39,032 nt of DNA, from the NCBI GenBank assembly GCA_016876035.1, contig VGOE01000019.1, positions 1 to 39,032 on the forward strand, read 5' to 3'. The position numbers were made by a program, and so were the translations under genes. Source of the stretch: Chloroflexota bacterium (GTDB taxonomy: Bacteria > Chloroflexota > Dehalococcoidia > UBA2247 > RBG-13-53-26). Under the pieces are notes generated by a model. That model made no database searches. It was given only the letters and a program-made list of their open reading frames with translations, and was not told the origin of the DNA. Positions within the stretch are counted from its first letter, which is position 1. Each line of letters begins with the position of its first letter. Positions 4,295 through 37,218 of this stretch are shown in pieces.

Positions 4295-6256
4295 CTATCC
4301 GCGAGCTTCAGCTATCAGGCCTCTCGACTGAAGGTCGTCGGCAATTTCTTTCAACCCCAGCTCTTCCAAAGAGGCCCTGGTTTGCAGACCGGTGGACACA
4401 TCCCATCGCCGCAGCGCATAGTATTCATCTTTCATCCGCTCGAATTTCTCCCTCTCTACGACGGCTCCTTTTCGTGATATGACTTCCCCGTCTTTACCGG
4501 GCACCAGGCAACCCGGGTTGATAAAGTCGGACTGGAGAGGCTCGGAAAAGCAGCGGTCAGAAAGGTCATCGAAACCTCTGCCCCGCTGCCCCTCCCGTAC
4601 CAGTATGGCACGCTGTAAATTGAAAACTCGCTCGCCCATCCTGTAAAGCCCTTTCTCATCAATATCCCACCCCGTTACAGCAGCCAGAAGCTTGCTTTCC
4701 AGGGTGGGGTCACCCACGTGGTCCTCGGTGTTCTGAAGGTCAATGATGGGCCAAAGATAATCACAAAGAATGAGACAGTCCTTGGCAGTCTCTCGTTCCT
4801 GGATCATCTTTGCTGCCATGTCTTTACCCTCGTATGTAGAGAAGTCACCAGCCACTTCGCTTCCCCAGAACCGCTTGGCTATGGCGCGTACTACCTCAGA
4901 AGAAGCTACACCCCCAGGCTCTTTCTTGACCCATGATACCCATTTCGCTACAAGCGTGCTCACTTCGTGAAGCTGTGGCATCGCCAGTCTGGGCTCCATA
5001 GCATGGAAAAGCGCATTGGTGATGTACAGCCTCGGACTGTAAATCTCAGTGTACCCCGGCATCGCTATGTGCACTGCACTCTTGAGCTGTTCTTTGGCTT
5101 CTCGGCCTATGGAGTTGGCAGCCTCGTCCACTCCTTTGGCCAGGGCTTCTCCGAAGCCCTGACGCAATGAAACCTTCCTGACCAGAGTCTCTATGAACTC
5201 CACGCTCCCCGTCTTTGACACGGGGATGCCCGTATTCTCGTCAGTCAGGATACCAGCTTTGTAGCAATGGTGAAGCCAGCTAATCATTCGGTCGATGACT
5301 TTAGAATCAAGCCCATAGGTGTCCACAAGCTTCGTGGCATGGAAGGGCACATCATTCCATTGACCGTAATAGGATACTGACCACGGTTGATAGAATAGGC
5401 ACGAGGCGCAGAAGAACTTCCCTGTCATTCCATCATCGGCTTCATAGAGTCGTCTGGAGCATCCCCTACAGCCATAACAGGGATCCATCTTCTTCATCCT
5501 GGTGCGGCTCAGGCTGGGCACGACTTCCGTGGAAAACCGGTAGTTCGAGTGTCGAAGGATAATTGGCACTAGCCCTCGATAATGCTGGGTCAACTCTCGT
5601 AGCCGCTCGGGTCGAGCCACCGCCACCCCCTTACCCGCGCCCTCAACAACGATGGCCTTCAGCTTCTTGGATCCCATCACAGCGCCCATACCCGCCGAGC
5701 CACTGGCGTCATTGTCCGCCAGAAGAGTTGCCATTCTCACTAGGTTCTCGCCTGCGGGGCCGATGGCCACTACCCTGGCTGATTGTCCTAGTTCACCCTT
5801 AAGGGCTTCTCTGGCCTCGATAGCCCCTTTTCCCCACAGGGCAGAAGCATCCCTAAGCTCAACCATATCACGGCGGATGAGAAGGTAGACCGGTTTTTCC
5901 GACTTGCCTTGGACGACGACGGCATCGTATCCGGCGAATTTCAGCTCAGCCCCCCACCTACCCCCCAGGTTGCCATAGGAGAACTGCTGGCGGGCTGGGG
6001 CGGGCGATTTGCCGCAGACCTGCCACCGCGAACCGGCAATCGCAGGCAATCCAGCCAGGGGACCCGTGGCAAATATCAACCTGTTCTCGGGGTCGAAGGC
6101 ATTAGTCTCCGGCGGCACTTCATCCCAATATATCTTGGCACCAATGCCTCTGCCGCCCAGAAAATCGGTGGCATAGTCAATCGTCGGAACTGTGGTGACC
6201 CTTCCCGAAGACAAGTCTACTCTCAGAATATTTCCCGCATATCCAAAGGTTGGCAT
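4295..6256 (-). CDS. Aldehyde ferredoxin oxidoreductase family protein (AOR1)
   Basis: This 653-residue tungsten/molybdenum bis-pterin enzyme belongs to the family that oxidises aldehydes to acids with ferredoxin or runs the reverse reaction. It has the N-terminal AOR domain (GYAGNILRVDLSSG at 5-18, FLGGRGIGAKIYWDE near 32-46), a pterin-site segment DNDASGSAGM (181-190) and the Fe-S ligands C260, C263, C266 and C498. Canonical AORs have Cys-x2-Cys-x3-Cys. Here one residue is missing, giving Cys-x2-Cys-x2-Cys, unlike the otherwise similar AOR2 at 35215-37218. The start at 6256 has AAGGGG upstream. It is the last gene of a minus-strand run (DUF6125-like pair, SDR), separated from the SDR gene by 272 bases of repeat-bearing DNA. 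BamB-type benzoyl-CoA reductase subunits share this fold, so an acyl-CoA or aromatic substrate is possible. Confidence 0.9.
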   Translation of the reverse strand: MPTFGYAGNILRVDLSSGRVTTVPTIDYATDFLGGRGIGAKIYWDEVPPETNAFDPENRLIFATGPLAGLPAIAGSRWQVCGKSPAPARQQFSYGNLGGRWGAELKFAGYDAVVVQGKSEKPVYLLIRRDMVELRDASALWGKGAIEAREALKGELGQSARVVAIGPAGENLVRMATLLADNDASGSAGMGAVMGSKKLKAIVVEGAGKGVAVARPERLRELTQHYRGLVPIILRHSNYRFSTEVVPSLSRTRMKKMDPCYGCRGCSRRLYEADDGMTGKFFCASCLFYQPWSVSYYGQWNDVPFHATKLVDTYGLDSKVIDRMISWLHHCYKAGILTDENTGIPVSKTGSVEFIETLVRKVSLRQGFGEALAKGVDEAANSIGREAKEQLKSAVHIAMPGYTEIYSPRLYITNALFHAMEPRLAMPQLHEVSTLVAKWVSWVKKEPGGVASSEVVRAIAKRFWGSEVAGDFSTYEGKDMAAKMIQERETAKDCLILCDYLWPIIDLQNTEDHVGDPTLESKLLAAVTGWDIDEKGLYRMGERVFNLQRAILVREGQRGRGFDDLSDRCFSEPLQSDFINPGCLVPGKDGEVISRKGAVVEREKFERMKDEYYALRRWDVSTGLQTRASLEELGLKEIADDLQSRGLIAEARG

Positions 6257-12843: not shown

Positions 12844-13062
12844 GTTCACTGATTCACACCAGCACCAACAAACATGAAAGCGCCGTATTTTCGTGAGACT
12901 GACATTGATCAACACCCCCTGTGATACCCTATTGATTTAGGCCTATACTGGCGTTATCATGTAGGCGGGATGCCAAACCGTACCATTGGCCTGTGAGAAA
13001 GAGCGAAGGGAGGGCACTCACTCATTCACTCACTCTGCCCTCTGGAAGGGAGGATGGACTCC

Positions 13063-16000
13063 ATGAAAGGCAACAGCAAGAAGGAACCGAAAGCACCGCT
13101 AAAGGCACCGAGGAAAAAACAGGCTAGGGCAAGACGCAAGCCAGCAGGGGAAGCCCTGCGCCAGAGCGAAAGCGTGTTCAGGGCTCTGTTTGAGTCCGCA
13201 CTTGACGGTGCGCTTATCGTGGACAGCGAATTGAAAGTAGTGGCTGCCAGTGAAGCTGCCGCCAGGATGTATGGCCTCGGGTCTGGCATGGATGCCATCG
13301 GACTGAGTATACTCGACTTTGTCGCTCCGGAAGAAAAAGAGCGAGTCGCCAGGGTTATTACCGAAGATTTGCTTGAAAAGGATTTGCGCCACGTTGAGGA
13401 GTACCGGACACTGGCTGGAGACGGCAGGGAAATATGGATAAGCGCCACAGGAACCAGGATCGAATACGAGGGAAAACTGGCCGGGCTGATTTCACTTAAG
13501 GACATCACCGAACACAAGCAGGCAGAAGAGTCCCTGCGCCGGTCGGAGGACAAGTTCGCCACAGCTTTTCGTGCCTGCCCCGACCCGGTATGCATCACGA
13601 CGCTGAAGGAGGGACGCTATGTCGACGTGAACGACAGCTTCCTACGGGCTACGGGCTATCAGCGTGAGAAGGTAATCGGGCACACCACACCGGAGCTCGG
13701 CGTGTTTGCCAGGCAGGAGGATCGTGACAGAGTAATCCGCATGGTGCAGACAGAGGGGAGAATCAGCGATCTGGAATTTGACTTCCACACGAGGTCGGGC
13801 CAGATTCGTACGGGACTGGTCTCCGTAGAGCTTATCGATCTCCGCGGCGAGCCATGTTTGCTCACCATAGCTAACGACATCACCGAGCGCAGGCGCGCCG
13901 AGGAGGCGCTGAAGCTTCAGAAAGCCTACTTCCAGCAGCTCTTTGACAACTCCCCGGAAGGTATTGCCTGGCTGAATGATGCCGACAGGATCGTCAACGT
14001 CAACGCCGGGTTCGAGACGCTCTTTGGCTACCGGGCAGAGGAAATCAGAGGCCGCCTTATTAATGACGTTGTTGTCCCTGAAGACCGTCTTGAGGAAGCG
14101 TCAGCGTTATCTTGGGCAAGTCAGCATAGAGACGTCATCCTGCAGAAAGACACAGTGAGAAAACGCAAGGACGGCAGCCTGGTAGATGTATCCGCGCTGG
14201 GTTGCCCCATCCGGTTTGGTGACGATACAGTCGGGGTATATGTCATATACAGGGATATCACAGAACGCAAGCGGTCAGAAAAGGAACTGCGAAAATCCGA
14301 GGAGAGGTATCGGTCGCTTTTTGATAGCCATGTTGACCCCGTCACCGTTTATGACATTGATGGCCGCCTTCTATTGATCAACGCCGTCGGAGCCAGGAAC
14401 TTCGGAGGAAGACCAGAAGATTTTGTCGGCAAATCGTATCACGAACTGTTCCCCGAACAGGGTGCCGCCTACCAGGAGAGACATCGGCAGGTAGCACTGT
14501 CAGGCACACCCGCAGAGTTTGAGGATATGGTGGAGTTTCCTTCCGGCAAACGCTGGTTTTTGTCAGTCCTCCACCCAATCAAAGACGAAAGAGGCAATAC
14601 GTATGCGGTGCAAATTATTTCCCACCACATCACCGAGCGCAAGCGCGCAGAGGAAGCGCTCCAGCAGAGAGAGCAGTATTTTCGGTCGCTCTTAGAAAAC
14701 GCTCGGGATGCCGTGCTGGTTGTGAATGATGATGTAACCATTAGCTACCAAAGCCCGCCTTATACTCGCACGCTGGGATACGTACCGGAGGAGGAACTTG
14801 GTGGTAGCCTGCTCGACAAAATACACCCGGATGATGTCACCAAGCTGTCTGATGATCTTGCTCGGTTGCTGCAAAACCCAAGCCACGCCTCGCATTTTGA
14901 GGTGCGTATCAGGACCAGGGACGGGTCATGGCACATTATCGAAGGTGTAGCCAGAAACCTTCTTCATGATTCGGCCGTGCATGGGATTGTAGTCAACTTC
15001 GGCGACATCACCGAGCGCAAGCGCACGGAGGAAGCGCTCAAACAGAGTGAGGAGAAATACCGTCTGCTGGCCGAGAATGTGACCGACCTGATATACGTCA
15101 TGGATACGGACATGAAGGTCACCTACCTTAATCCGGCTATCACGCGATTGCTGGGCTTCAGCGTTGAGGAAGGGATGACCCGCAGCCTGGCAGATTCCAT
15201 GACCCCCGCCTCGCTCGGGATTGCCGCCAGGGCCCTGCAAAGTGTACTCAATGCAGGGAAGTTGCCACCAGGAGACTTTCAAGATCATGGAAGGACGGAG
15301 CTGGAGATGTACCGCAAAGACGGCTCCATCATGTGGGCAGAAAGTGTAGTCTCAGTCATGCGCGACTCTGATGGCAGACCCACAGGAATTCTGGGAGTAA
15401 CCCGCGACATTAGCCAGCGGAAGCAGGTTGAGGAGGCACTGCGGGAGTCTGAAGCCAAGTATGCTGCCGTGGCGGAGCAAGCGGCGGACGGCATAGTCAT
15501 CGTGCAGGATGGGCTCATCAAGTTCGCCAACAAGGCTCATGCCCAGATTACCGGCTATTCCGTGGCAGAGCTGACCGGCATGCCCTTCCTGGATACAATA
15601 GACCCTTCAGACCGAGACCTGGTTGCCCGGAGATACGATAGGCGGATGGCCGGGACACCGGTTTCAGCTATCCTGGAAACTAGAATGCTGTGCAAAGATG
15701 GCACGGTAAAGGAGGCAGAGGCACGGGCTACTACCATCCAGTACCAGGGCAGGCCGGCTGCCCTAGCTGTCATCCGCGACGTCACCGAGCGCAGGCGGGC
15801 GGAGCAAGAGCTACAACACAAGGAAGAGTTCTACCGTTCATTGATAGAAAACGCTTCGGATGCCATGGCCATCCTTAATACTGATGGGACGATCCGCTAC
15901 CAAAGCCCGTCTTATCTGAACGTGCTGGGGTACTTACCGGAGGAGGAAGCTGGCAGGAACTTGTCCGACCACATACACCCGGATGATATTGCCTGGGCGC

Positions 16001-16962
16001 TTGAGGATTTAGCCCGATTGCTGCAAGACCCGAGTTACGTCTCTCGTTTTGAGCTGCGTGTCAGGTTCAGAGATGGGTCCTGGCACACCATCGAAGGTAC
16101 ATCCAGAAACCTTCTCCATCATCCCGCCGTAGAGGGCATTGTGGTCAATTTTCACGACATCACCGAACGCAAGCGGGCAGAGGAAGAGCTGCAACAGGCT
16201 TACGAACGGGAAACACAATTGCGGTCTGAGTTAGTGGAGGAGATGCAGAAAAGGGTGGAGCTCACCAGAGCTTTGGTGCACGAGCTAAAGACGCCGCTCA
16301 CCTCGGTGATCGCTTCCAGCGAACTGATGGCGCTGGAGCTTCCAGAAGGGCCACTGTCTAGAATGGCAAAGAACATCCACCGCAGTGCCGGGAATCTCAA
16401 CAATAGGATTGACGAACTCCTCGACGTGGCCAGAGGCGAGCTAGGTATGCTCCGCCTGAATCTCATGTCCGTAGACCCAGCCAGAGTGCTGAAGGGACTG
16501 GTTGAGGACATGGACCCTATAGCTTTGAGTCAACACCAAACCTTGCTCCTGGATCTGCCGCCCTCCCTTCCGCCGATCTGGGCTGACGAGAGCCGCCTGT
16601 GCCAGGTGGGGCTCAATCTGCTGAGCAATGCCTGCAAATTCACCCCTCAGAGAGGAACGATCACGCTAAGGGCCAAAGTGGAGGGTGATAGGCTGATGGT
16701 GGAGGTGGAGGATACGGGTCGTGGGATAAGCGAGGCAGACCAGCAATGGCTGTTCACTCCCTATTACCGGGGCGAGGCAGATAAGGAGCGTTTCAGCGGA
16801 TTGGGGCTAGGGCTCGCCTTGTCAAAGATGCTGGTGGAACTCCACGGGGGGCAGATGTGGGTAAAAAGCCAGCAGGGCAAAGGCAGCACCTTCGGCTTTT
16901 CACTGCCTCTAGCAACAGAGAGCCAGCAGGAACAGGTGTTCCAAGGAGATGAAGAAGAATGA
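13063..16962 (+). CDS. Multi-PAS sensor histidine kinase (eight PAS domains), soluble
   Basis: The protein has about 1,299 residues. After a Lys/Arg-rich start, eight PAS domains follow at roughly 120-residue spacing, each ending in a DITERKRAEEAL-like linker. The C-terminal kinase core is complete: H-box VHELKTPLTS (His near 1073), N-box LLSNACKF, G1 VEDTGRGI, F-box LFTPYY and G2 GLGLGLALSK. There are no membrane segments or receiver domain, so it is a cytoplasmic kinase whose partner is elsewhere. PAS5 and PAS8 are nearly identical (SYQSPPY vs RYQSPSY, IHPDD, RDGSWH), a sign of internal duplication. I favour the ATG at 13063, nine bases after GGGAGG. The ATG at 13054 abuts that motif. PAS ligands (haem, FAD, small molecules) cannot be told. 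Direct repeats flank the gene. Confidence 0.93.
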   Translation: MKGNSKKEPKAPLKAPRKKQARARRKPAGEALRQSESVFRALFESALDGALIVDSELKVVAASEAAARMYGLGSGMDAIGLSILDFVAPEEKERVARVITEDLLEKDLRHVEEYRTLAGDGREIWISATGTRIEYEGKLAGLISLKDITEHKQAEESLRRSEDKFATAFRACPDPVCITTLKEGRYVDVNDSFLRATGYQREKVIGHTTPELGVFARQEDRDRVIRMVQTEGRISDLEFDFHTRSGQIRTGLVSVELIDLRGEPCLLTIANDITERRRAEEALKLQKAYFQQLFDNSPEGIAWLNDADRIVNVNAGFETLFGYRAEEIRGRLINDVVVPEDRLEEASALSWASQHRDVILQKDTVRKRKDGSLVDVSALGCPIRFGDDTVGVYVIYRDITERKRSEKELRKSEERYRSLFDSHVDPVTVYDIDGRLLLINAVGARNFGGRPEDFVGKSYHELFPEQGAAYQERHRQVALSGTPAEFEDMVEFPSGKRWFLSVLHPIKDERGNTYAVQIISHHITERKRAEEALQQREQYFRSLLENARDAVLVVNDDVTISYQSPPYTRTLGYVPEEELGGSLLDKIHPDDVTKLSDDLARLLQNPSHASHFEVRIRTRDGSWHIIEGVARNLLHDSAVHGIVVNFGDITERKRTEEALKQSEEKYRLLAENVTDLIYVMDTDMKVTYLNPAITRLLGFSVEEGMTRSLADSMTPASLGIAARALQSVLNAGKLPPGDFQDHGRTELEMYRKDGSIMWAESVVSVMRDSDGRPTGILGVTRDISQRKQVEEALRESEAKYAAVAEQAADGIVIVQDGLIKFANKAHAQITGYSVAELTGMPFLDTIDPSDRDLVARRYDRRMAGTPVSAILETRMLCKDGTVKEAEARATTIQYQGRPAALAVIRDVTERRRAEQELQHKEEFYRSLIENASDAMAILNTDGTIRYQSPSYLNVLGYLPEEEAGRNLSDHIHPDDIAWALEDLARLLQDPSYVSRFELRVRFRDGSWHTIEGTSRNLLHHPAVEGIVVNFHDITERKRAEEELQQAYERETQLRSELVEEMQKRVELTRALVHELKTPLTSVIASSELMALELPEGPLSRMAKNIHRSAGNLNNRIDELLDVARGELGMLRLNLMSVDPARVLKGLVEDMDPIALSQHQTLLLDLPPSLPPIWADESRLCQVGLNLLSNACKFTPQRGTITLRAKVEGDRLMVEVEDTGRGISEADQQWLFTPYYRGEADKERFSGLGLGLALSKMLVELHGGQMWVKSQQGKGSTFGFSLPLATESQQEQVFQGDEEE

Positions 16963-21217: not shown

Positions 21218-21640
21218 GTGGTCCAGGACATAGACCAGGTCATGGAGTATTACGCCTCCGTTTTCGGCTGGGGGCCTTTCCATCTTCGCGAGGTGGAGTT
21301 GAAAGGATTCACCTATCGCCATCAGCCCTCCGACTCCCGCCTGAAAGTGGCCTACCTCCAGTCCGGCCCTGTTCAGATTGAACTAATCCAGGTCATGGAA
21401 GGTGAAACGCCCCACAGTGACTTTCTGCGGCAAAAGGGAGAGGGGCTGCAGCACCTTTGTTTCCGGGTGGACGACTTCGCCGCCACCGCCACCGAACTGG
21501 CCAAGGAGGGCATAGAGCCCGTGTGGCATCTCCCCGGTGCGCCGGTATTCGCTTATGTCAACAGCGACCGCATTGGCGGCGTCATGTTCGAGCTAGTTGA
21601 GAAAGGACAGATGGGAGAGCAGGAAAAAGATGAGGCATGA
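21218..21640 (+). CDS. VOC-family protein 1 (glyoxalase/methylmalonyl-CoA epimerase-like), N-terminus uncertain
   Basis: This vicinal-oxygen-chelate protein has 140 residues from a GTG at 21218. Homology with VOC2 starts earlier: the same frame upstream encodes ELPPVDQIGIVV, but a stop at 21152 precedes it and no start codon lies between. An ATG at 21133 (MQNPNEVKADGK) is in the neighbouring frame. Removing one A from the AAAA at 21166-21169 would join the two into a normal VOC start, so a frameshift or base-call error is likely. Conserved features are GEGLQHLCF (metal His) and GVMFELV (metal Glu). The usual first-strand His is Gln, as in VOC2 and VOC3. It is the first gene of the molybdopterin operon. 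The role is probably isomerase, epimerase or lyase on the same substrate. Confidence 0.8.
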   Translation: MVQDIDQVMEYYASVFGWGPFHLREVELKGFTYRHQPSDSRLKVAYLQSGPVQIELIQVMEGETPHSDFLRQKGEGLQHLCFRVDDFAATATELAKEGIEPVWHLPGAPVFAYVNSDRIGGVMFELVEKGQMGEQEKDEA

Positions 21641-23840
21641 CGGAAGCCACCATCCAGCCCAAACAGAACAAGTCATATATTCTATCCATTCAAGCCATTG
21701 CGGAGGAGCTTGCCTCCTGAAGATATACGTCAAGGATGGCAGAGTAACCAGGATGGAGACAGACGATCAGGAAGAACCGCAATTCCGGGCCTGCGCCAAA
21801 GGGCGGGCCTACCGCCAGAGGACGTATGCGCCTGACCGCCTATTGCATCCGATGAAAAGGACGGGAGAAAGAGGGGAAGGCAGATTTGAGCCAATCTCTT
21901 GGGACGAGGCCATGGACACCCTGGCCGGGGAGCTGAACAGGGTCAGAGAGACCTATGGCCCACAAGCCATCCTGTTCAAATGGTCGGGAGGAGATACAGC
22001 CAGACTGCACAGCGCCACCTGCCATTACCGGCTGCTTAACATGATCGGAGGCTGCTCCGAGGTTTGGGGCACCTTCTCTTTCGAAGGCGGCCTCTTTGCC
22101 GAACTGGCTACCTACGGCACTGTAGATACAGGCAACACCAGGGACGATTTCCTCAGCTCCCGGCTGATCATCATGTGGGGTTGGAACCCCTCTTCCACCA
22201 TCCAGAACACCAACACCGCCTGGTATCTGGCCCAGGCTAAAGAGGCTGGGATCAGGATTGTCTCTATCGATCCCAGATACACAGACTCCAACGCCACTTT
22301 CTCTGACGAGTGGATTCCCATTATCCCTGGCACTGATGCCGCCCTGGCCATCGCCATGGCCTACCTGATAGTGAAGGAAAACCTCCAGGACCAGAAGTTT
22401 CTGGACAGATACACTATTGGTTTCGATCAATTCAGACACTACGTCCTGGGAATCGAGGATGGCACGCCTAAGACCCCAGCCTGGGCTGAAGCTATTACCG
22501 GTGTGCCAGCGCCCACGATAGAGCGCCTGGCCAGGGAATATGCCACCACCAAGCCAGCAGCACTGATCGCCGGCATCGGCCCGGGGCGCACCGCCTACGG
22601 TGAGCAATACCACCGGGCAGCCATGACTCTGGCAGCCATGACAGGTAACGTTGGCATCCCCGGAGGTAGTTCGGGAGGGCGGTCATGGCCCACCGCCGGG
22701 CCAACCGCTTACTTCAGCCTGGGCCGTGGCATGAGGACGCCTGCCAACCCAGTGGAGTCTAACGCCCTACCCCGCCGCAACTCCCTGGCCAGTTTTGGCA
22801 TCGCCATGAGGAGAGGCCAGATCAATGTGGCCAAGATGTCGGATGCTATTCTCCAAGGGAAAGCGGGCGGTTATCCCGCTGATTACAAACTGCTTTACCT
22901 GGTAGATACCGATTATCCCAATCAGTACCTCAACGTCAACAAGGCAGTCCAGGCCCTGAAGAAGCTCGAATTCGTGGTGGCCTTTGAGCAGTTCATGACA
23001 CCGGCGGCCAGGTTCGCTGACCTCCTGCTGCCCACCTGCACCACGCTGGAAAAAAACGATATCGCCCTTGACGGAGCCACTGGCTTCTATGGGTATATGA
23101 ATAAGGTTGTCGATCCCATAGGCGAGTCCAGGTCTCATCTTCAAATCTGCATGGAACTGGCGAACAAGCTGGGTATCCCTGACTACAACGACAAGACCGA
23201 GGACGAATGGCTGCGGGAGATAGTGAAGGGGAGCAATGACATCGCCGACTATGACACCTTCAAGAGTAACGGGATTCACAAGCTGAGACTCCCTGAGCCT
23301 TATGTAGCTTTCCAGCAACAGATCGAAGACCCGGCAAACAACCCCTTCCCCACCCCCAGCGGCAAGATCGAGATCTATTCGCAGCGGCTGGCGGACATGA
23401 ACGACCCCCTCATCCCACCCATCCCCCAGTACATCCCAACCTGGGAAAGCCGCCGTGACCCGCTGGCCCACAAGTACCCGCTCCAGCTCATTACCACTCA
23501 TATCATCAGACGAGCGCACTCCCAGTACGACAACATACCCTGGCTAAGGGAACTTCAAACCCAGGCAGTATCTATCAACTCCGCCGATGCCCAGACCAGA
23601 GGGATCAAGGATGGCGATAGGGTCAGGGTTTTCAATGATAGGGGCGAGACCATTCTTCCTGCCAGTGTGACAGAAAGGATGATACCGGGCGTAGTCGACA
23701 TCCCTCAGGGCGCCTGGTATAAGCCCGACGAGAAAGGCGTTGACACGGGAGGGTGCTGCAACGTCCTGACAAAGGACGAACACTCGCCAGGGGGAGCCTA
23801 CTGCTCCAATACGACCCTGGTACAGGTGGAGAAAGCCTGA
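21630..23840 (+). CDS. Molybdopterin oxidoreductase catalytic subunit 1 (MopB1, DMSO-reductase family)
   Basis: This subunit has about 736 residues with the full MopB layout: N-terminal Fe-S site, bis-MGD domains and a C-terminal dinucleotide-binding domain (GDRVRVFNDRG). Cluster ligands are H20, C24, C28 and C55. The first position, Cys in MopB2, is His, as in NarG. By alignment with E. coli DmsA the metal ligand should be S150 (GTFSFEGG). No Tat signal is present, so it is cytoplasmic. The start is uncertain. ATG 21630 keeps the frame, but ATG 21637 makes a classic ATGA overlap with the VOC1 stop and encodes MTEATIQPKQ before leaving frame. One added A at AAA 21661-21663 would fuse that start to the main frame. 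It is closely similar to MopB2. The substrate is unknown. Confidence 0.9.
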   Translation: MRHDGSHHPAQTEQVIYSIHSSHCGGACLLKIYVKDGRVTRMETDDQEEPQFRACAKGRAYRQRTYAPDRLLHPMKRTGERGEGRFEPISWDEAMDTLAGELNRVRETYGPQAILFKWSGGDTARLHSATCHYRLLNMIGGCSEVWGTFSFEGGLFAELATYGTVDTGNTRDDFLSSRLIIMWGWNPSSTIQNTNTAWYLAQAKEAGIRIVSIDPRYTDSNATFSDEWIPIIPGTDAALAIAMAYLIVKENLQDQKFLDRYTIGFDQFRHYVLGIEDGTPKTPAWAEAITGVPAPTIERLAREYATTKPAALIAGIGPGRTAYGEQYHRAAMTLAAMTGNVGIPGGSSGGRSWPTAGPTAYFSLGRGMRTPANPVESNALPRRNSLASFGIAMRRGQINVAKMSDAILQGKAGGYPADYKLLYLVDTDYPNQYLNVNKAVQALKKLEFVVAFEQFMTPAARFADLLLPTCTTLEKNDIALDGATGFYGYMNKVVDPIGESRSHLQICMELANKLGIPDYNDKTEDEWLREIVKGSNDIADYDTFKSNGIHKLRLPEPYVAFQQQIEDPANNPFPTPSGKIEIYSQRLADMNDPLIPPIPQYIPTWESRRDPLAHKYPLQLITTHIIRRAHSQYDNIPWLRELQTQAVSINSADAQTRGIKDGDRVRVFNDRGETILPASVTERMIPGVVDIPQGAWYKPDEKGVDTGGCCNVLTKDEHSPGGAYCSNTTLVQVEKA

Positions 23841-23853
23841 AGGAGGACAAAGG

Positions 23854-24312
23854 ATGACGAATGCCGGAAAGGTGGTGCTACCACCAGTGAGCCAGGTTGG
23901 GATTGTAGTCAGGGACATCGAAAGGACGGCGCAATACTACACCTCAACCTTTGGCATAGGCCCTTTCACCATCATCGATGTCGATATGGATGGCGTGATC
24001 TTGCGGGACAAGCCCATCAGGCTCAAGATGAAGGCGGCCTTTGCCCAATCGGGGCCGCTCCAGATTGAGCTTATCCAGTCGGTGGAGGGGGAGAACCTTT
24101 ATACCGAGTTCCTAGCCAGCAAAGGGGAAGGGCTACACCATCTGGGTTTTCAGGTTGATGACATGGAAGCTGTGCTGGCTGATTTGGCCAGGAAAGGGAT
24201 CAAGCCGGTATTTCATCATAATTACGGCTTCGGGGCCTTTGCCTATCTGAACACTGACAAGATTGGCGGTGTGATGTTCGAGCTACTCTGGACAAAGAAG
24301 CCGGAGAGGTAG
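23854..24312 (+). CDS. VOC-family protein 2
   Basis: This 152-residue single-domain protein is of the methylmalonyl-CoA epimerase/glyoxalase type and a close paralogue of VOC1. It carries LPPVSQVGIVVRDIERTAQY at the start and FGIGPF in the first motif. LQIELIQSVEG, GEGLHHLGF (metal His) and GVMFELL (metal Glu) follow. The first-strand metal His is replaced by Gln. GGAGG lies seven bases before the ATG at 23854, 13 bases after the MopB1 stop, so it is in the same transcript. The paired repeats VOC-MopB suggest that the VOC proteins process the substrate or product of the Mo/W enzyme, for example by epimerising a CoA ester or isomerising an enol. No measured function is implied. Confidence 0.88.
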   Translation: MTNAGKVVLPPVSQVGIVVRDIERTAQYYTSTFGIGPFTIIDVDMDGVILRDKPIRLKMKAAFAQSGPLQIELIQSVEGENLYTEFLASKGEGLHHLGFQVDDMEAVLADLARKGIKPVFHHNYGFGAFAYLNTDKIGGVMFELLWTKKPER

Positions 24313-24418: not shown

Positions 24419-24928
24419 ATGGCACCACAGCTACCCTCGACAGTGAAGGTCTCAGAGCTCTTTCAGGTTGCTGTTGTCGTCCGCGACCTTGAGGAGAGCA
24501 TGAAACGCTACGAGAGCCTCTTAGGCATCAGCTCATGGATGATCTTTGAAGTCAGTCCTTCCCTCGTTCAAATGACCTATCACGGGAAACCATCCCAGCA
24601 CAGCTTCAAGGCCGCCTTCACCATGTTGGGATCCCTCATGATCGAATTGCTCCAGCCCCTCGAGGGAAGGGGTATTTACCGTGATTTCCTGGACAAACAT
24701 GGCGAAGGTCTGCATCACCTGGGGCACGTCCGGGTGGATAACTTAGATGCTGCTGTCCAGGCACTGGAGAAGGCTGGCTTCCCCTGTGTAGGGTCTGGGG
24801 AGACTTTGGGAGGCCCCGGCGAAAACTATCACAAGTGGGCTTATGTAGATACGACTGCGGCTCTTGGCTACATCATCGAACTGTCCACCGGCAGTGATCC
24901 AAGAGCTATGTTCGCCACACAGACGTAG
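24419..24928 (+). CDS. VOC-family protein 3
   Basis: This 169-residue VOC protein is more distant from VOC1 and VOC2. It has FQVAVVVRDLEESMKRYE at the first strand (Gln again in place of His), LMIELLQPLEG, GEGLHHLGHVRVDN (metal His) and YIIELS (metal Glu). A longer loop around GSGETLGGPGENYHKW distinguishes it. AAAGGAGG lies upstream of the ATG at 24419. The preceding gap of 106 bases has no clear terminator. It is followed 23 bases later by MopB2, giving a second VOC-MopB pair. A role parallel to VOC2 but on a different intermediate is the simplest reading. Confidence 0.88.
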   Translation: MAPQLPSTVKVSELFQVAVVVRDLEESMKRYESLLGISSWMIFEVSPSLVQMTYHGKPSQHSFKAAFTMLGSLMIELLQPLEGRGIYRDFLDKHGEGLHHLGHVRVDNLDAAVQALEKAGFPCVGSGETLGGPGENYHKWAYVDTTAALGYIIELSTGSDPRAMFATQT

Positions 24929-24951: not shown

Positions 24952-27180
24952 ATGGTTGTCAACGACAAGACTCTGGCTGGTGAGGAACAGATAATCTACA
25001 CTGGCTGCAATCAGCACTGCGGCGGAAGCTGCTTGCTGCGAGTGCACGTGAAGGATGGGGTTATCACCCGGATCGAGACAGATGACGGAGAAGAGCCACA
25101 GGTCAGGGCCTGCATGAAAGGCCGTGCCCAGCGTCAACGGGTGTATGCCCCCGACCGCATCACCCATCCCCTTAAGCGCGTGGGGGAAAGAGGGGACGGA
25201 AAATTCGAGCGGATATCCTGGGACGAGGCTCTGGAGACCGTGGCCGGGGACATCAGGCGAATTCGGGATACCTACGGACCGGCCTCGATTCTGTTTCTTG
25301 TCTCCGCGGGTGACATTTGCTCCATCAATATGGGCATGCCTATCTATCGGTGCCTTTGCATGGCCGGAGGCTGTTCCCTTACCTGGGCCATCTGGTCCTT
25401 CTGGGGAGCCATTGCCGCGGAGCACGTCACCTTTGGCCGCACCTTCAGGCAGAACACCCGGAACGACATCCTCAACTCCAAGTATATCATCCTGTGGGGC
25501 CTCAATCCGTCAAACTCAGTGCATGACAACAACTTCTGCTGGTATCTAGCCCAGGCCAGGGACGCCGGCATCAAGATCGTGGCCATCGATCCCCGGTATA
25601 CGGATACCGCCGCCAACTTTGCCGACGAATGGATACCCATTATCCCTGGCACCGATACGGCCATGCTTATGGCCATGGCCTACGTCATCATTACCGAGAA
25701 CCTGCACGACCAGCAGTTCCTCAACAAATACACGATCGGGTTTGGCAAATTCAAGGACTATGTGCTGGGCATCGAGGATAGCATCCCCAAGACCCCGGAG
25801 TGGGCCGAGCCTATTACCAGCGTCCCAGCGGCCACCATAGCGCGGCTGGCCAGAGAGTACGCCACTGCCAAGCCGGCATGCCTCTTGGCCGGGATTGTGC
25901 CGGGGCGGACTGCCTACGGTGAGCAGTATCACCGCGCCACTCACACCCTCTGCGCCATGACCGGGAACACGGGCAAACACGGCGGAGGGGCGGGTGACAT
26001 CGTTCATACCGGAATGCCGGTAGCGTCTCTCTACGGAGGGGTGCTTCACCATATACCCAATCCGGTGGAGGGTGATAGGCCTCCCGCGGAGCACTACTTC
26101 CCACCAAAGATCAATTATATCCTGCAAGGCCCTCGAGGCAGCGTAAACCTTCACGAAGTAGCCGACGCCATTCTTGAAGGCAAGTCCGGGGGCTATCCGG
26201 CGGACTACAAGATGGCCATAACCTGCAACACCAACTACCTCAACCAGGATGCTAACATCAACAAGACGGTGCGGGCTTTCAAGGCCTTGGAGTCCGTAGT
26301 CGTGCTGGAGCAGTTCATCAGCCCCACGGCCCGCTACGCCGACATCGTCCTTCCTACCACCACCTTCTTGGAAAGGGACGATTTCACCCAGGGATCGGAC
26401 CAGCCTTACTTCGTCTTCCAGCGTAAGTGCATCGAGCCGATAGGGGAATGCAAGCCTCATTACTTCATAGCCGCTGAGTTGGCCAAGAAATTGGGGATCG
26501 ACAATTTCGATACCGTGACGTATGGGGAGCGCATAGAGCAAATGCCGAAGAAGAACACCCTACGCTTCCCCCTCACGCTGGAGATGTTCCGCGAGAAGGG
26601 CGTTATGAAGGTCCCGCTCCCCGAGCCCTGGGTGCGTTTCAAGGAAGAGATAGAAGACCCGGAAAAGCACCCCTTCCCCACGCCTTCGGGAAAGATCGAA
26701 ATCTATAGCGAGCGGCTGGCCGAACTGAATGACCCCCTCATCCCCCCTATCCCCAAGTGGATCGAGCCCTGGGAGAGCCGGAATGACCCCCTGACCAAGA
26801 AGTACCCTCTGCAACTGATCAGCACTCACCCCAAGCGGCGTGCTCATACCCAAATGGAGACCATACCCTGGCTCAGGGAACTGGTCCCGCAAGAAGCACT
26901 GATGAACACCATCGACGCCAAGGCAAGGGGAATCCGTACCGGCGACCGCGTCCGCGTCTTCAACGAACGGGGACAAATGATTATCCCAGCACGGGTCAGT
27001 CAAAGGATCATGCCCGGGGTGGTCGATATTCCCGAGGGAGCGTGGTATGCCCCGGATGAGAATGGGGTGGACCGGGGTGGCAATCCGAACGTCCTGACGA
27101 AAGACAAACCCTCGCCTTTGGGAGCGTTTACCGCTTCCAGCAATGCTCTGGTTCAGATTGAGAAGGCGCAGGAGGACTAG
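24952..27180 (+). CDS. Molybdopterin oxidoreductase catalytic subunit 2 (MopB2, DMSO-reductase family)
   Basis: This 742-residue tandem paralogue of MopB1 has a standard Cys4 Fe-S site: C19, C23, C27 and C54. The Mo/W ligand by alignment with DmsA is S149 (AIWSFWGA). Shared blocks with MopB1 include AIDPRYTDTAANFADEW, PIIPGTD, REYATAKPA, PGRTAYGEQYHRA, HPFPTPSGKIEIYS and a C-terminal GVVDIPEGAWY. There is no Tat signal or twin arginine at the N-terminus. GAAGGAGG lies six bases before the ATG at 24952. The electron-transfer gene starts three bases after its stop, so those two proteins are almost surely partners. MopB1 may share the same partner or form a heterodimer. DMSO-reductase, acetylene-hydratase and transhydroxylase relatives all share this fold, so the reaction is open. 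Confidence 0.93.
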   Translation: MVVNDKTLAGEEQIIYTGCNQHCGGSCLLRVHVKDGVITRIETDDGEEPQVRACMKGRAQRQRVYAPDRITHPLKRVGERGDGKFERISWDEALETVAGDIRRIRDTYGPASILFLVSAGDICSINMGMPIYRCLCMAGGCSLTWAIWSFWGAIAAEHVTFGRTFRQNTRNDILNSKYIILWGLNPSNSVHDNNFCWYLAQARDAGIKIVAIDPRYTDTAANFADEWIPIIPGTDTAMLMAMAYVIITENLHDQQFLNKYTIGFGKFKDYVLGIEDSIPKTPEWAEPITSVPAATIARLAREYATAKPACLLAGIVPGRTAYGEQYHRATHTLCAMTGNTGKHGGGAGDIVHTGMPVASLYGGVLHHIPNPVEGDRPPAEHYFPPKINYILQGPRGSVNLHEVADAILEGKSGGYPADYKMAITCNTNYLNQDANINKTVRAFKALESVVVLEQFISPTARYADIVLPTTTFLERDDFTQGSDQPYFVFQRKCIEPIGECKPHYFIAAELAKKLGIDNFDTVTYGERIEQMPKKNTLRFPLTLEMFREKGVMKVPLPEPWVRFKEEIEDPEKHPFPTPSGKIEIYSERLAELNDPLIPPIPKWIEPWESRNDPLTKKYPLQLISTHPKRRAHTQMETIPWLRELVPQEALMNTIDAKARGIRTGDRVRVFNERGQMIIPARVSQRIMPGVVDIPEGAWYAPDENGVDRGGNPNVLTKDKPSPLGAFTASSNALVQIEKAQED

Positions 27181-27183
27181 ACA

Positions 27184-29202
27184 ATGCAGCAGATAGGATT
27201 TTTCTACGACCAAACACGATGCATGGAATGTTTTGCTTGCTGCGTTGCCTGCAAGGACTGGCACGACATACCGGCGGGCCCTGCCCACTGGAAGCGGATC
27301 ATCGCTATCGAGGAGGGTAAGTGGCCTCATCTGTCGCTGGCACACCTAGCCATCAACTGCTTCCACTGCGCGGAGCCAGTCTGCATGGACGTCTGCCCTG
27401 CCAAGGCCATCACCAAGAGGGAAGAAGACGGGGTGATGGTCGTGGATCGAAATAAGTGCCAGGACGAATCCCACTGCGGCGTCATGACCATCGAGTCCTT
27501 GGCCCTCTTCGCCGGTGCTGAAATTCAGGCACCCTGCAAACTCGCCTGCCCGGCCCACCTCGATGTCCAGGGATACGTTGCCCTCATAGCCAATGGGAGA
27601 TATAAAGAGGCCCTTGATCTGATCAGGGAGAAAATGCCCCTTCCCTCTGTCTGCGGACGGGTGTGCAAAGCTCCCTGTGAAACGGACTGCCAGAGGCAGA
27701 AATTGGATGAGCCTGTGGCTATCTCTGCCCTCAAGCGCTTCGTCACCGACTTTGCGCCCTATGAGGTTCCCCAACCCATTCCCCACACCAAGGCAGAGAA
27801 AATCGCCATCATCGGCTCAGGCCCGGCGGGGCTGTCCGCAGCCTATGACCTGGTCAGGATGGGTTATGGCGTCACGGTCTTCGAAGCCCTGCCTGTGGCC
27901 GGCGGGATGCTGGCTGCAGGCGTCCCCCAGTATCGCCTGCCTAAGGAAGTGCTACAGAGAGACATCGACTATATCAGGGGCCTGGGCGTGGAGATCAAAC
28001 TGAACACGCCCGTCGGTCACGGCCTGAGCCTTGGCGATCTGAGGCAGCAGGGCTACAACGCCGTCTTCATAGCTACCGGTGCGCATAAGGGCCAGACGCT
28101 ACCCGTACCCGGCGCCGACCTGGATGGCGTGCTCGTGGGCACTTCGTTTCTCAGAGACGTTAATCTGGGCAGGAAGGTGAGGGTCGGCCAGAGAGTTCTG
28201 GTGGTTGGCGGTGGCCACGTGGCCGTTGATTGTGCCCGCAGCGCCTGGCGGCTGGGGGCGCGTGATGTCCAGATGGCCTGCTTGGAGTGCCGTGAGGAAA
28301 TGCCTGCCACTGGCCCCGAACTTGAGGCCACGGCTGAAGAAGGGATTGTCATTCATCCTTCGGTCACCGTCACGAAGGTGCTGGGCAACCAGGGCAAGGT
28401 GGCTGGTGTTGAGTGTCTCAGCCTGAGCCACATGGAGTTCGATGACGAGGGCCAGTTGCGTATGGACGTCATCCCGGGCACCGAGCATACCCTGGCAACG
28501 GACACGGTCATTTGGGCTATTGGTCAGGCACCCGATTTGAGCTTTCTGGGCGGGACTGACATAGAAGTCTCGAAGCGTGGTGCTATCATCGTGGATCCTG
28601 ACACGTTTGAGACCAACATTGAGGGTGTCTTCGCCGGTGGGGACGTTATCGGAGGCCAGGAAGCCAGTGTCATTCATTGCATCGCCGCCGGCCAGAAAGC
28701 AGCAGTGCATATCGACCGCTGTCTCAAGGGAGAGGTAATCAAGGATAGTCGTCGCCCACGATCAGTGAATGCCTCGGATATCGAGGTATCCATTCCGTCG
28801 AGTGTGAGGAAGGCGAAGCAGCGCAAAATGCGCCAGTTTCCAGTGGCCAAGAGGTCTGGCAGTTTCCACGAAACCGCCCTCGGTTTCAGCCAAGCCCAAG
28901 CCATAGCCGAAGCCCAGCGGTGCCTCCGCTGCGCGGGACGGCTTTGTCAGGAGGTCTGCCCCTATGAAGCTCCTCAATTTGGAGCCGAGGATCGGGCCAA
29001 GATGCAGATGTGCGACTTCTGCCTGGACAAACTAACACTGAACGAGAAGCCTATCTGTGTGGCTGCCTGCCCGGTGAGAGCGCTGGATGCCGGCCCTCTC
29101 CAAGAACTCAAGGCAAAGTATGCTGCTAAGGAAGAGGCCAGACATTTCAGAAGATCGAGAATAGCTCCTTCAGTCGTGTTCAAGCCCAAGTTGAAGGGAT
29201 AG
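27184..29202 (+). CDS. DmsB-type ferredoxin subunit with an inserted GltD-like FAD/NAD(P) module
   Basis: This 672-residue protein has a nested architecture. Residues 1-92 are the first half of a DmsB-like four-cluster subunit: C13, C16, C19, C23; C59, C62, C67, C71; then VVDRNKC. Residues about 112-580 are a GltD/DPYD-N-like module with its own Cys set (C118, C122, C157, C161, C165, C169), FAD motif GSGPAG (211-216), NAD(P) motif GGGHVA (342-347) and a second FAD motif GVFAGGD (481-487). Residues 580-672 resume DmsB: C580, C583, C588, C592 (CPYEAPQF) and C610, C613, C625, C629 (CPVRALDAGPLQELKAKY). It should pass electrons between NAD(P)H and MopB2 in the cytoplasm. AGGAGG ends the upstream gene just before the ATG at 27184. 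Domain identity is firm. The direction of electron flow is not known. Confidence 0.92.
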   Translation: MQQIGFFYDQTRCMECFACCVACKDWHDIPAGPAHWKRIIAIEEGKWPHLSLAHLAINCFHCAEPVCMDVCPAKAITKREEDGVMVVDRNKCQDESHCGVMTIESLALFAGAEIQAPCKLACPAHLDVQGYVALIANGRYKEALDLIREKMPLPSVCGRVCKAPCETDCQRQKLDEPVAISALKRFVTDFAPYEVPQPIPHTKAEKIAIIGSGPAGLSAAYDLVRMGYGVTVFEALPVAGGMLAAGVPQYRLPKEVLQRDIDYIRGLGVEIKLNTPVGHGLSLGDLRQQGYNAVFIATGAHKGQTLPVPGADLDGVLVGTSFLRDVNLGRKVRVGQRVLVVGGGHVAVDCARSAWRLGARDVQMACLECREEMPATGPELEATAEEGIVIHPSVTVTKVLGNQGKVAGVECLSLSHMEFDDEGQLRMDVIPGTEHTLATDTVIWAIGQAPDLSFLGGTDIEVSKRGAIIVDPDTFETNIEGVFAGGDVIGGQEASVIHCIAAGQKAAVHIDRCLKGEVIKDSRRPRSVNASDIEVSIPSSVRKAKQRKMRQFPVAKRSGSFHETALGFSQAQAIAEAQRCLRCAGRLCQEVCPYEAPQFGAEDRAKMQMCDFCLDKLTLNEKPICVAACPVRALDAGPLQELKAKYAAKEEARHFRRSRIAPSVVFKPKLKG

Positions 29203-29323
29203 CCGCGGCTCGATCCAGGAGCTTGGATGAGTCTTCAGATGCATTTGGTGATGCGGATGGTGGATGCGCCGTCTCCTGGTGCTTAGTTGCAGAAATGAGA
29301 GTCACCCTGCTTCATGAAGTGAG

Positions 29324-29352
29324 ACCCTGATCCGCCTGCAGCGGATCAGGGT
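29324..29352. repeat. Perfect 12-bp palindromic hairpin after the molybdopterin operon
   Basis: ACCCTGATCCGC (29324-29335), loop CTGCA, GCGGATCAGGGT (29341-29352). An outer GTCACCCTG/CAGGGTGAC pairing is also possible. It has no T-run but lies about 120 bases after the operon's last stop and could stall or protect the 3' end. The 290-base gap 29203-29492 has no gene. Confidence 0.75.
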
Positions 29353-29368
29353 GACAGCGTCCATACAG

Positions 29369-29397
29369 GTCATTCTGAGCGGAGCGAACAATCTCAG
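29369..29397. repeat. GTCATTCTGAGCG-type short repeat, copy B
   Basis: GTCATTCTGAGCGGAGCGAA followed by CAATCTCAG matches 21007-21036 and 37979-38005 with small changes. Confidence 0.7.
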
Positions 29398-29492
29398 TTG
29401 TTACGCAGAACTGTGCAACTAGGTATTGATCCTGACAGAGAGGCCAGGACTTCGCTACGGACATTCGGGGCCGGGGCAGAAACGAGAACCAT

Positions 29493-29771
29493 ATGTTGAA
29501 ACCCGACGACCTCTGCCTCTGTTGCGGGACTATACCGGGGGCGAGCTTCAAAGAGTTGGTTGAAGCTGGCGCTGCCGGGGGATTCCACTCCATATCTATT
29601 CGGGCGCACCACTACGAGAATGCCCGTGCTGCAGGACTCAGCGACCGGGACATGCGTCTGATGTTGGAAGATCACGGTTTAGTAATTACAGAACTGGACC
29701 CTCTGCTCCAGGCGCGGTTGGAGCGGATGCTCCAACCTACCCCGAGTTTTCGGACAGTCTATCAGAGCTAG
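29493..29771 (+). pseudogene. Truncated sugar-phosphate isomerase/epimerase-like (TIM barrel) fragment
   Basis: The 92-residue frame begins MLKPDDLCLCCGTIPGASF and continues ELVEAGAAGGFHSISIRAHH, then GLSDRDMRLMLEDHGLVITE. As I know the family, this is the first beta-alpha unit or two of an AP-endonuclease-2-like TIM-barrel isomerase, which is normally about 270-290 residues. Similarity stops after LDPLL. The remaining residues are encoded by a perfect hairpin (GGTTGGAGC/GCTCCAACC, 29716-29737) and unrelated sequence, with the PAP2 gene starting five bases after the stop. I read it as a 3'-truncated remnant created by a repeat or rearrangement. A genuine small protein is possible but less likely. 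The ribosome-binding site is weak. Confidence 0.65.
29716..29737. repeat. Perfect 9-bp hairpin at the end of the isomerase fragment
   Basis: GGTTGGAGC (29716-29724), loop GGAT, GCTCCAACC (29729-29737). It resembles the hairpin at 17187-17208 in size and sits where the isomerase homology ends. Confidence 0.7.
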
Positions 29772-35214: not shown

Positions 35215-37218
35215 TCAGTGATGCAGCCTTTGTACCTCGCCTTGAGAAGGACGGCCAGAGGCTATGAGGCCCCTCTGCTCTAGATCACGGGCTACCTCCT
35301 CCAGTCCCAACCCCTCCAGGTTAGCCCTGGTTTGCAGGCCCGTGGCCACATCCCACCCCCTGATCTGGTAGTATTCGTCTTTCGCCTTTTCGAAGGCTTT
35401 TCTATCGACTACTGCGCCCTTGAGGGAGACAACCTCCCCATCTTTCCCCGGCACCACACACTCAGGGTCGGCATGGTCGTACTCTAAGGGCAACGTATGA
35501 CACGAATCGGGCAGCTTATCGTAATCTCTTCCCCGGTGACCTTCCCTGACAAGTATGGCCCTTTGCAGATTAAACACCCTTTCACCTATCCTGTAAAGCC
35601 CCTCCTCATCCACCCCCTTCCCCGTAACAGCCGACAACAGCTTGCTTTCCAGGGTGGGATCGCCCACATGGTCCTCGGTATGTTCCAGGTCTGTCAGAGG
35701 CCACAGAAAGTCACAAAGAATAAGGCATTCCTTGGCGTACTGTCGGTCCTGAATCATCTTTGCTGCCAGGGCTTTCCCGTCCAGGGTAGAGAAATCGGCT
35801 GCCAGGTCGCTTCCCCAGAATCTCCTGGCAATGGCGCGGAATACATCGGTGGTAACATAGCTCGGGAGACCGCAAGCCATGGCTGCCCATTTGGCTAGGA
35901 GGAAACTCACTTCATGGAGGTGCTGCATAGGTAATCTCGGCTCCATAGCGTATGGAAAGGCGTTGGTCACATAGAGTCTCGGCCCATACCACGGATATAG
36001 CCCGGGCTCGGACTGGTAGCCGGCCAGCTCAGCTTGCTCTTTCGCCCCTGGCCCTAGCGAATCTGCCGCCTTGAACACCCCTTGAGCCAGCAATTCCCCC
36101 AGGCCATCCCGGAAAGCGATCTTTCTCACCAGGGTCTCAATGAACTCCAGGCTACCCATTTTCGATATAGGGATGCCACTATTTTCATCAGTCAGAATGC
36201 CAGCTTCATAGCACCCATGGAGCCAGCCCAGCATCAAGTCCACGGAGAAAATGTCAATCCCATAGTTATCGCAAAGCTTGGTAGCATAGAAGGGGACGTC
36301 GTTGGGATTATCGTTCCAGTCCCCATAGTATCGGTCAGACCAGGGCTGATAAAACAGGGCTGCTCCACAAAAGAATTTCCCCTTCTGGCCATCCGCTGCC
36401 TGGTAGATCTTCCTGGCGCAACGGCCAATACAGCCATAGCAGGGGTCCTTCTTCATTTCAGGGCCGGGTACCAGTTTGAATTCCTGATGTGTATTTCTCA
36501 CCCACCGGCTCATGTATTCCCACTGGCCCCTCCCCACTTCACGATAGTAGGCCGTGAGCTCTTTCAATCTGTGCGGCTGGGCTACCTCCACTTTCTTCCC
36601 AGCACCGATCACCACGACGGCCTTCAGTTTCTTGGCCCCCATGGTTGCCCCTAAACCTCCCGCGCCAGCCGCATCGTTGTCAGCTAACAGCGAAGCTATG
36701 GCAACCCCGTTCTCACCAGCAGGCCCCGTAGCTACCACCCTGGCTGAGCTTCCCAGCTCACTTTTGAGAGCTTCCCTGGACTCAATCGCGCCCTTGCCCC
36801 ATAAAGGTGAGGCATCCCTTAATTCAGCGATCTCGTCATTAAGGAAGAGGTAGACCGGCTTCTCCGATTTGCCTTGAACCACGATGCCGTCGTAACCGGC
36901 AAACTTCAGCTCAGCTCCCCATCTACCTCCTAGATTGCAGTAGGAGAACCGATCCGGGGCGGAAGGGGATTTCCCGCAGACCTGCCATCGCGAGCCAGCA
37001 ATTACCGGAAGCCCCCCCAGCGGCCCGGTGATGAATACTAGCCTGTTTTCTGCGTCGGAGGCTCTGACTTCAGGCGGGACCTCGTCCCAGTATATCTTGG
37101 CAGCGATACCCCTCCCACCCAGGAATTTGTCAGCATACTCCGATGTCGCAGCTTCAGCTATGCTCCTTGAGGACAAATCCACCCGTAGGATCTTCCCAGC
37201 ATACCCGAATGCCGGCAT
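35215..37218 (-). CDS. Aldehyde ferredoxin oxidoreductase family protein (AOR2)
   Basis: This 667-residue paralogue of AOR1 shares long blocks (FGYAGKILRVDLSS, KIYWDEVPPE, SRWQVCGKSP, NLGGRWGAELKFAGYD, DPTLESKLL). Fe-S ligands are canonical: C260, C263, C267 (CYGCIGRC) and C502 (ILCDFLWP; C498 is nearby). The pterin-site segment is DNDAAGAGGLG (181-191). The start at 37218 has GGAAAG upstream. The protein is expected in the cytoplasm with a tungsten bis-pterin centre and electron exchange with ferredoxin. Its operon partners are a SnoaL-like protein upstream and a lipocalin-like protein and APH-SCP2 fusion downstream, quite different from those of AOR1, so the two likely act at different steps or on different substrates. 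An acyl-CoA-reducing BamB-like role is an alternative. Confidence 0.92.
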   Translation of the reverse strand: MPAFGYAGKILRVDLSSRSIAEAATSEYADKFLGGRGIAAKIYWDEVPPEVRASDAENRLVFITGPLGGLPVIAGSRWQVCGKSPSAPDRFSYCNLGGRWGAELKFAGYDGIVVQGKSEKPVYLFLNDEIAELRDASPLWGKGAIESREALKSELGSSARVVATGPAGENGVAIASLLADNDAAGAGGLGATMGAKKLKAVVVIGAGKKVEVAQPHRLKELTAYYREVGRGQWEYMSRWVRNTHQEFKLVPGPEMKKDPCYGCIGRCARKIYQAADGQKGKFFCGAALFYQPWSDRYYGDWNDNPNDVPFYATKLCDNYGIDIFSVDLMLGWLHGCYEAGILTDENSGIPISKMGSLEFIETLVRKIAFRDGLGELLAQGVFKAADSLGPGAKEQAELAGYQSEPGLYPWYGPRLYVTNAFPYAMEPRLPMQHLHEVSFLLAKWAAMACGLPSYVTTDVFRAIARRFWGSDLAADFSTLDGKALAAKMIQDRQYAKECLILCDFLWPLTDLEHTEDHVGDPTLESKLLSAVTGKGVDEEGLYRIGERVFNLQRAILVREGHRGRDYDKLPDSCHTLPLEYDHADPECVVPGKDGEVVSLKGAVVDRKAFEKAKDEYYQIRGWDVATGLQTRANLEGLGLEEVARDLEQRGLIASGRPSQGEVQRLHH

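Follow-up and report, generated by a model that had tools for sequence, protein, structure and literature searches.

Architecture of the fusion protein

Here we analysed a stretch of 39,032 nucleotides from a Dehalococcoidia genome (the window), in which a single open frame at 27184-29202 (+) encodes a protein of 672 amino acids that is composed of the N-terminal half of a DmsB-like ferredoxin (aa 1-98), a GltD/NfnB-like flavin module (aa ~114-584) and the C-terminal half of DmsB (aa 588-672). The parts of this fusion protein and the genes of two DmsA-like molybdenum subunits encoded in the window are given in Table 1. An earlier note on this DNA had proposed that a complete FAD/NAD(P) module of the GltD type lies between the two halves of a DmsB-type ferredoxin, and the Pfam and TIGR02951 scans returned exactly the order that it had predicted, DmsB(N)-Fer4_20-Pyr_redox-DmsB(C). 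Fer4_20 and Pyr_redox_2 matched the module with 90.7 and 124.2 bits (Pfam cut-offs of 25.8 and 26.1, respectively), and its top NCBIfam match was NF009410 (PRK12771), with 460.1 bits, under the curated cut-off of 516. When the two ends of the protein were scanned separately against TIGR02951, a model of 161 positions, aa 3-94 corresponded to positions 1-99 (E = 1.5e-24) and aa 588-648 to positions 101-160 (E = 1e-19). The full model is hence covered by the fusion, though in two pieces, and the whole-protein score was 144.8 bits, below the curated cut-off of 214.1.

Table 1. Coordinates in the window of the fusion protein's parts and of the molybdenum subunits.
Feature	Position	Strand	Basis
MopB1, second DmsA-like subunit (likely ATG at 21630)	21597..23840	+	56% identity to MopB2
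MopB2, DmsA-like molybdenum subunit, immediately upstream of the fusion	24952..27180	+	TIGR02166, 646.5 bits
DmsB N-terminal half (aa 1-98)	27184..27477	+	TIGR02951 positions 1-99; Cys invariant in five orthologs; alignment to stand-alone DmsB paralogs
Cys of the DmsB N-terminal half: group I C13, C16, C19, C23; group II C59, C62, C67, C71; first two of group III C92, C98
Variable linker from C98 to the flavin module (about aa 99-113)	27478..27522	+	Length and sequence differences among orthologs
Inserted flavin module of the GltD/NfnB type, circularly permuted by sequence (aa ~114-584)	27523..28935	+	Fer4_20, Pyr_redox_2; NF009410; 46 related modules
Fer4_20 part (aa 115-191): C118, C122, C161, C165, C169, K184	27526..27756	+	Pfam; 8oh5_C alignment
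FAD- and NAD(P)-binding Rossmann domains (aa 206-501): GSGPAG (211-216), GGGHVA (342-347)	27799..28686	+	Pyr_redox_2
Permuted tail (aa ~548-584), ending EAQRC(580)LRC(583)	28825..28935	+	Homology to the GltD/NfnB N-terminus
DmsB C-terminal half (aa 588-672 and stop): group III C588, C592; group IV C610, C613, C625, C629	28945..29202	+	TIGR02951 positions 101-160 of 161; invariant Cys

The clearest evidence for a genuine insertion is the alignment of the fusion with a stand-alone DmsB paralog from the same genome (contig C25), in which fusion aa 3-98 correspond to 28989-29276 (E = 1.5e-38) and aa 586-669 to 29277-29531 (E = 1.9e-28), the second stretch directly abutting the first. Because both halves can be aligned to this contiguous paralog without an intervening gap, and the TIGR02951 pieces are complementary, we read the fusion as a true domain insertion and not as an end-to-end fusion, in agreement with the earlier note. 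The two DmsB halves recognised there also stood, with their boundaries (aa 1-92 and 580-672) shifted slightly to aa 1-98 and 588-672, since C92 and C98 are part of the N-terminal DmsB half and C580 and C583 part of the flavin module.

In the stand-alone DmsB proteins of the class, Cys group III mostly has the form Cx5Cx2Cx3C, as in CLGRDRCQLCLEACPY. The insertion splits this group between its second and third Cys, giving VDRNKC(92)QDESHC(98) before the insert and LC(588)QEVC(592)PY after it, so that 489 residues separate C98 from C588 and groups II and III of DmsB are non-contiguous in the fusion chain. It would be very improbable, given this arrangement, that the two ends are independent small ferredoxins flanking a GltD module instead of one DmsB fold: the halves complement each other in one model and in one contiguous paralog, and the split falls inside one Cys group, neither half having a full group III. 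Judged from these alignments, the insertion of the whole flavin module into a DmsB-type ferredoxin is confirmed, both in its architecture and in its insertion point, and the two halves probably pack as one DmsB fold. The sole structure model, obtained with few homologs, had a mean pLDDT of 34.7 and was not used; the viral-contig alignment available for modelling held only E. coli-like DmsB, thioredoxin reductases and one partial GltD, and the DmsB half was misaligned in it.

Distribution and conservation of the fusion

The survey covered the Dehalococcoidia class, a sample of the phylum, one exact-pattern scan and plasmids. Fusions were found in 5 of the 393 genomes of the class, the window genome included, and these five genomes belong to five families. 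The four orthologs (G045, G053, G368 and G347) share 52-57% identity with the fusion and have the same architecture and insertion point, the same order of domains thus being present in other genomes, where the earlier note had suggested looking for it. The occurrence of four orthologs in four other families rules out an assembly chimera or chance. In the phylum sample of 400 genomes no further fusion was found at E 1e-150, scans of viral contigs for the fusion returned no relatives, and the only matches in a genome-collection scan were Halieaceae proteins, which have a GltD module but lack DmsB parts. A plasmid match (L116) covering more than 80% of the query was rejected, its host protein being different, and a candidate second fusion in G053 (contig C253) was really a contig end.

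Exactly 23 Cys are invariant in the five fusion proteins, of which 16 belong to DmsB and seven to the module (C118, C122, C161, C165, C169, C580 and C583). The 16 DmsB residues form four groups, which upholds the identification of the host as a four-cluster ferredoxin of the DmsB type. In the tree of the DmsB halves four of the fusions cluster with support 99/97 and G347 is unresolved, while a single clade for all five fusions was not rejected (p-AU = 0.374). We also observed 27 and 21 reductive-dehalogenase matches in two single-contig relatives (1.5 and 1.7 Mb, respectively), which points to Dehalococcoidia as the class.

Circular permutation of the flavin module

In GltD and NfnB a CxxC segment lies N-terminal to the PCxxxCP motif. 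This N-terminal CxxC is missing here and the segment is found at the C-terminus instead, where aa ~548-584 (ending EAQRCLRC), C-terminal to the Rossmann domains, align with the N-termini of 4ylf_B (9-43) and 5jca_L (15-46), and fusion aa 117-517 align with the remainder of 4ylf_B. A profile HMM constructed from 44 such tails matched residues 12-50 of E. coli GltD with 26.3 bits, the best of 2000 shuffles reaching 5.7. As far as homology can show it, the flavin module is a circular permutation in which the final ~37 residues correspond to the N-terminus of ordinary GltD. The permutation cut separates the CxxC from the CxxxCP that comes next in a single cluster motif; we infer that the module begins and ends next to its own exit cluster, a layout that would account for its ability to plug into ferredoxin motifs. 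The split of group III, the permutation of the module and the presence of the same permuted module in other Fe-S hosts of the class (see below) are features absent from the earlier note, and none of the papers found in our literature search describes a DmsB-GltD fusion or a GltD permutation.

The tail CxxC is present in 44 of 46 related modules regardless of host, and 17 of these proteins end within 25 amino acids after it. Because of this conservation and of the proteins that terminate nearby, C580 and C583 were assigned to the module. Reciprocal exchange of Cys residues was our initial hypothesis: C92 and C98 would complete the exit cluster of the module and C580 and C583 would complete group III of DmsB, the cluster assignment alone being different. 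The segment RCLRCAGRLCQEVCP (579-593) does resemble one ordinary four-Cys motif, and C92 and C98 precede C118 and C122 like the N-terminal pair of ordinary GltD. However, the exchange was demoted once the tail CxxC had been found so widely, including in the 17 proteins in which the chain stops at that point and no ferredoxin follows that could be completed, and modules inserted in HdrA have no upstream Cys pair near their start. We hence consider the exchange of ligands unlikely and favour C580 and C583 as ligands of the module.

Cluster ligands and nucleotide preference

The order of ligands in DPD and GltD is the basis of our cluster assignment, according to which the flavin-proximal cluster would be bound by C122, C161, C165 and K184 and the exit cluster by C118, C169, C580 and C583. 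K184 aligns with K170 of StnC (8oh5_C alignment) and is Lys in four orthologs and Arg in G053. In StnC this Lys is a ligand of the flavin-proximal cluster next to a non-bifurcating FAD, and the Arg variant retained half of the activity (PMC10482914). The Lys or Arg is thus the probable eighth cluster ligand of the module and, the FAD of StnC being non-bifurcating, bifurcation is not expected in the fusion. The homology of the module to NfnB, together with the alignment of R251 with R239 of StnC, which corresponds to R201 of NfnB, would fit an NfnB-like flavin bifurcation between MopB and a ferredoxin. Nevertheless, K184 replaces the glutamate ligand of NfnB, as in the non-bifurcating StnC, and no gene for an NfnA- or HydBC-like partner adjoins the fusion, which makes bifurcation extremely improbable.

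With regard to the nucleotide, the column comparison of the 46 modules showed that LE takes the place of the NADPH-type RR pair in three orthologs (in the fusion of the window within ACLECREEMPA), and that the G053 ortholog retains RR. The presence of LE instead of RR hints at NADH. Contrary to this, the module carries a GxGxxA motif, regarded as of the NADP type (PMC12054007), which argues for NADP. On these motifs the choice of cofactor is ambiguous.

Molybdenum subunits and genomic context

MopB2 has the FS0 Cys residues and, together with the fusion, shows the pattern of a complex iron-sulfur molybdoenzyme (CISM), a catalytic MopB with FS0 and a four-cluster subunit. Its S149 shares an alignment column with the Ser that ligates Mo in E. 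coli DmsA (S205 when the annotated precursor is numbered, which we take to be S176 of the older numbering), and a Ser is kept at this position in the readable MopB partners. At all five loci the fusion has a DmsA-like MopB gene as its direct neighbour, in either order, and in the window MopB1 may share the fusion subunit with MopB2. No twin-arginine signal was seen in the N-terminus of MopB2, no membrane-anchor gene lies beside the fusion on the contigs read, none of the five genomes has DmsC, and NrfD occurs on other contigs only. The idea of the earlier note that the flavin module replaces a quinone anchor fits these absences but is unproven by them, since a stand-alone DmsB/MopB pair of the same genome (L050) is likewise without an adjoining anchor gene.

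Several other features of the locus deserve mention. In MopB1 (21630-23840) a His replaces the first FS0 Cys (YSIHSSHCGG), as it does in another MopB of the class (L088); a His at this position is a trait of the NarG type. Three genes of the VOC/glyoxalase type (21218-21640, 23854-24312 and 24419-24928) lie around the two MopB genes, and in G053 (L048:9317-9874) the fusion is likewise accompanied by a VOC gene and an OYE-like gene. The window further contains two aldehyde:ferredoxin oxidoreductase-like genes, at 4298-6256 (-) and 35218-37218 (-), and, upstream of the redox cluster, a histidine kinase with many PAS domains (13054-16962), possibly a regulator. Promoter and terminator scans around the locus gave results near chance level. 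Elsewhere in the same genome (contig C8, L049:2463-5342 (-)) an ORF of 960 amino acids joins a DmsB-like ferredoxin and a MopB end to end, with further DmsB and MopB genes adjoining.

Putative electron path

In subunits of the NarH, FdnH and DmsB type, Cys groups II and III bind the clusters that are distant from the molybdenum subunit, at the end facing the membrane anchor. The flavin would hence enter where the membrane subunit normally docks. This general placement of groups II and III does not agree with the earlier note, which had set the flavin in the middle of the Fe-S relay: the insert is in the middle of the polypeptide only, and in the relay it would occupy the anchor-docking end.

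Taking these results together, we think it probable that a permuted GltD module plugged into Cys group III of DmsB makes this system a soluble, NAD(P)H-linked molybdenum oxidoreductase that lacks a membrane subunit reacting with quinone and most likely acts as an NAD(P)H-dependent reductase. The path, the soluble state and the direction are what we infer from the arrangement of domains and genes. Electrons would pass from NAD(P)H to the FAD of the flavin module, then to the proximal cluster and the exit cluster, from there to the group II/III clusters of DmsB and on to the group I/IV clusters, and finally through FS0 to the Mo-bis-MGD of MopB2 and possibly also of MopB1. Because the module is opened beside its exit cluster and the host inside a cluster motif, the two junctions would keep the clusters of module and host side by side.

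The electrons might also run in the opposite direction: MopB would then use water to oxidise or hydroxylate an organic substrate, and NAD(P)+ would receive the electrons from the flavin module. Some enzymes of the DMSO reductase family are oxidative, and the neighbouring oxidoreductases, aldolases and VOC proteins suggest catabolism. In AorABC, a tungsten aldehyde oxidoreductase, electrons run from the catalytic subunit to a four-cluster ferredoxin, whose FS4 faces the FAD, and then to FAD and NAD+ (PMC10413684). The likeness to AorABC is functional, both systems having a catalytic Mo/W subunit, a four-cluster ferredoxin and an FAD unit that reacts with NAD, whereas AorABC consists of three separate chains, its catalytic subunit is unrelated and its FAD subunit is not inserted. 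Against the oxidative direction, the MopB partners fall into the DmsA/TorA/BisC group, in which Ser ligates the Mo and the known members are mostly reductases. We therefore keep oxidation as a tentative alternative of some weight, and an NAD(P)H-dependent reductase as the preferred reading.

The same module in other hosts and comparison with known systems

Across the class, HdrA-like and NuoG/FdhA-like proteins contain related modules, NuoF-like proteins have them at their end, and others are flanked by NuoH- and NuoI-like domains. In the tree of the modules those inserted in DmsB grouped with those inserted in HdrA, with weak support. The genome of the window itself has GltD modules between HdrA-like ferredoxin motifs on four contigs (L002, L004, L005 and L006, on C61, C46, C27 and C1, respectively), like type III HdrA, and a NuoG/FdhA-like protein (L008:991-3486 (-), contig C20) in which a GltD module separates the first ferredoxin motif from the second. 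In G032 an ORF of 1013 amino acids (L018:1333-4371 (-)) combines a NuoH-like membrane domain, a permuted GltD module and a NuoI-like ferredoxin, and looks in its domain order as if an NAD(P)H input had been attached to the core of complex I.

Precedents for such arrangements are known, and the DmsB host is a variant of these. In type III HdrA a GltD domain is inserted within the HdrA ferredoxin, and NAD(P)H has been proposed to replace ferredoxin as the partner (PMC12054007). As in the fusion, the GltD domain interrupts the ferredoxin of its host, but there the host is HdrA instead of a molybdoenzyme's DmsB subunit. The thioredoxin-reductase-like core of HdrA is absent from the fusion, in which the lone Pyr_redox_2 stretch is that of the GltD module, and neither DmsB nor permutation came up in a search of the text of PMC12054007. 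The Stn transhydrogenase subunit StnC is a GltD/NuoG fusion (PMC10482914). In StnC (8oh5) and the related 9bov chain the module is permuted in the same way, has a Lys at the proximal cluster and feeds an Fe-S relay. In StnC, however, the module lies between NuoG-like domains and has HydBC-like bifurcating partners, whereas in the fusion it lies between DmsB ends and has a MopB neighbour.

Compared with the DMSO and selenate reductases of the DmsAB(C) type, MopB2 and the ends of the fusion match the DmsA and DmsB models, but DmsC is missing from this system, no twin-arginine signal could be seen in MopB2, and DmsB carries an inserted flavin module. In NfnB/NfnL, GltD and DPD the homologous FAD/NAD(P)H module bears two [4Fe-4S] clusters in its N-terminal part, the fusion differing from them in the C-terminal position of the CxxC segment and in the Lys that replaces a Glu or Gln ligand.

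Placing the fusion beside these other hosts, we regard as evenly balanced the chances that the permuted GltD, opened beside its exit cluster, is a portable NAD(P)H port for the 4Fe-4S motifs of unrelated hosts (DmsB, HdrA, NuoG/FdhA and NuoH-NuoI-like proteins), with DmsB as the case in which a host cluster motif is split and a molybdoenzyme of the membrane type turned into a soluble, NAD(P)H-linked one. The permutation would then offer a testable structural reason why this module, rather than ordinary GltD, occurs inside ferredoxins and, for protein design, would provide a natural domain whose two termini coincide with the exit of electrons. A respiratory-type molybdoenzyme could in this way leave the membrane and couple directly to NAD(P)H by means of a single gene. 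These results suggest that some uncultured Dehalococcoidia may run NAD(P)H-coupled molybdenum chemistry.
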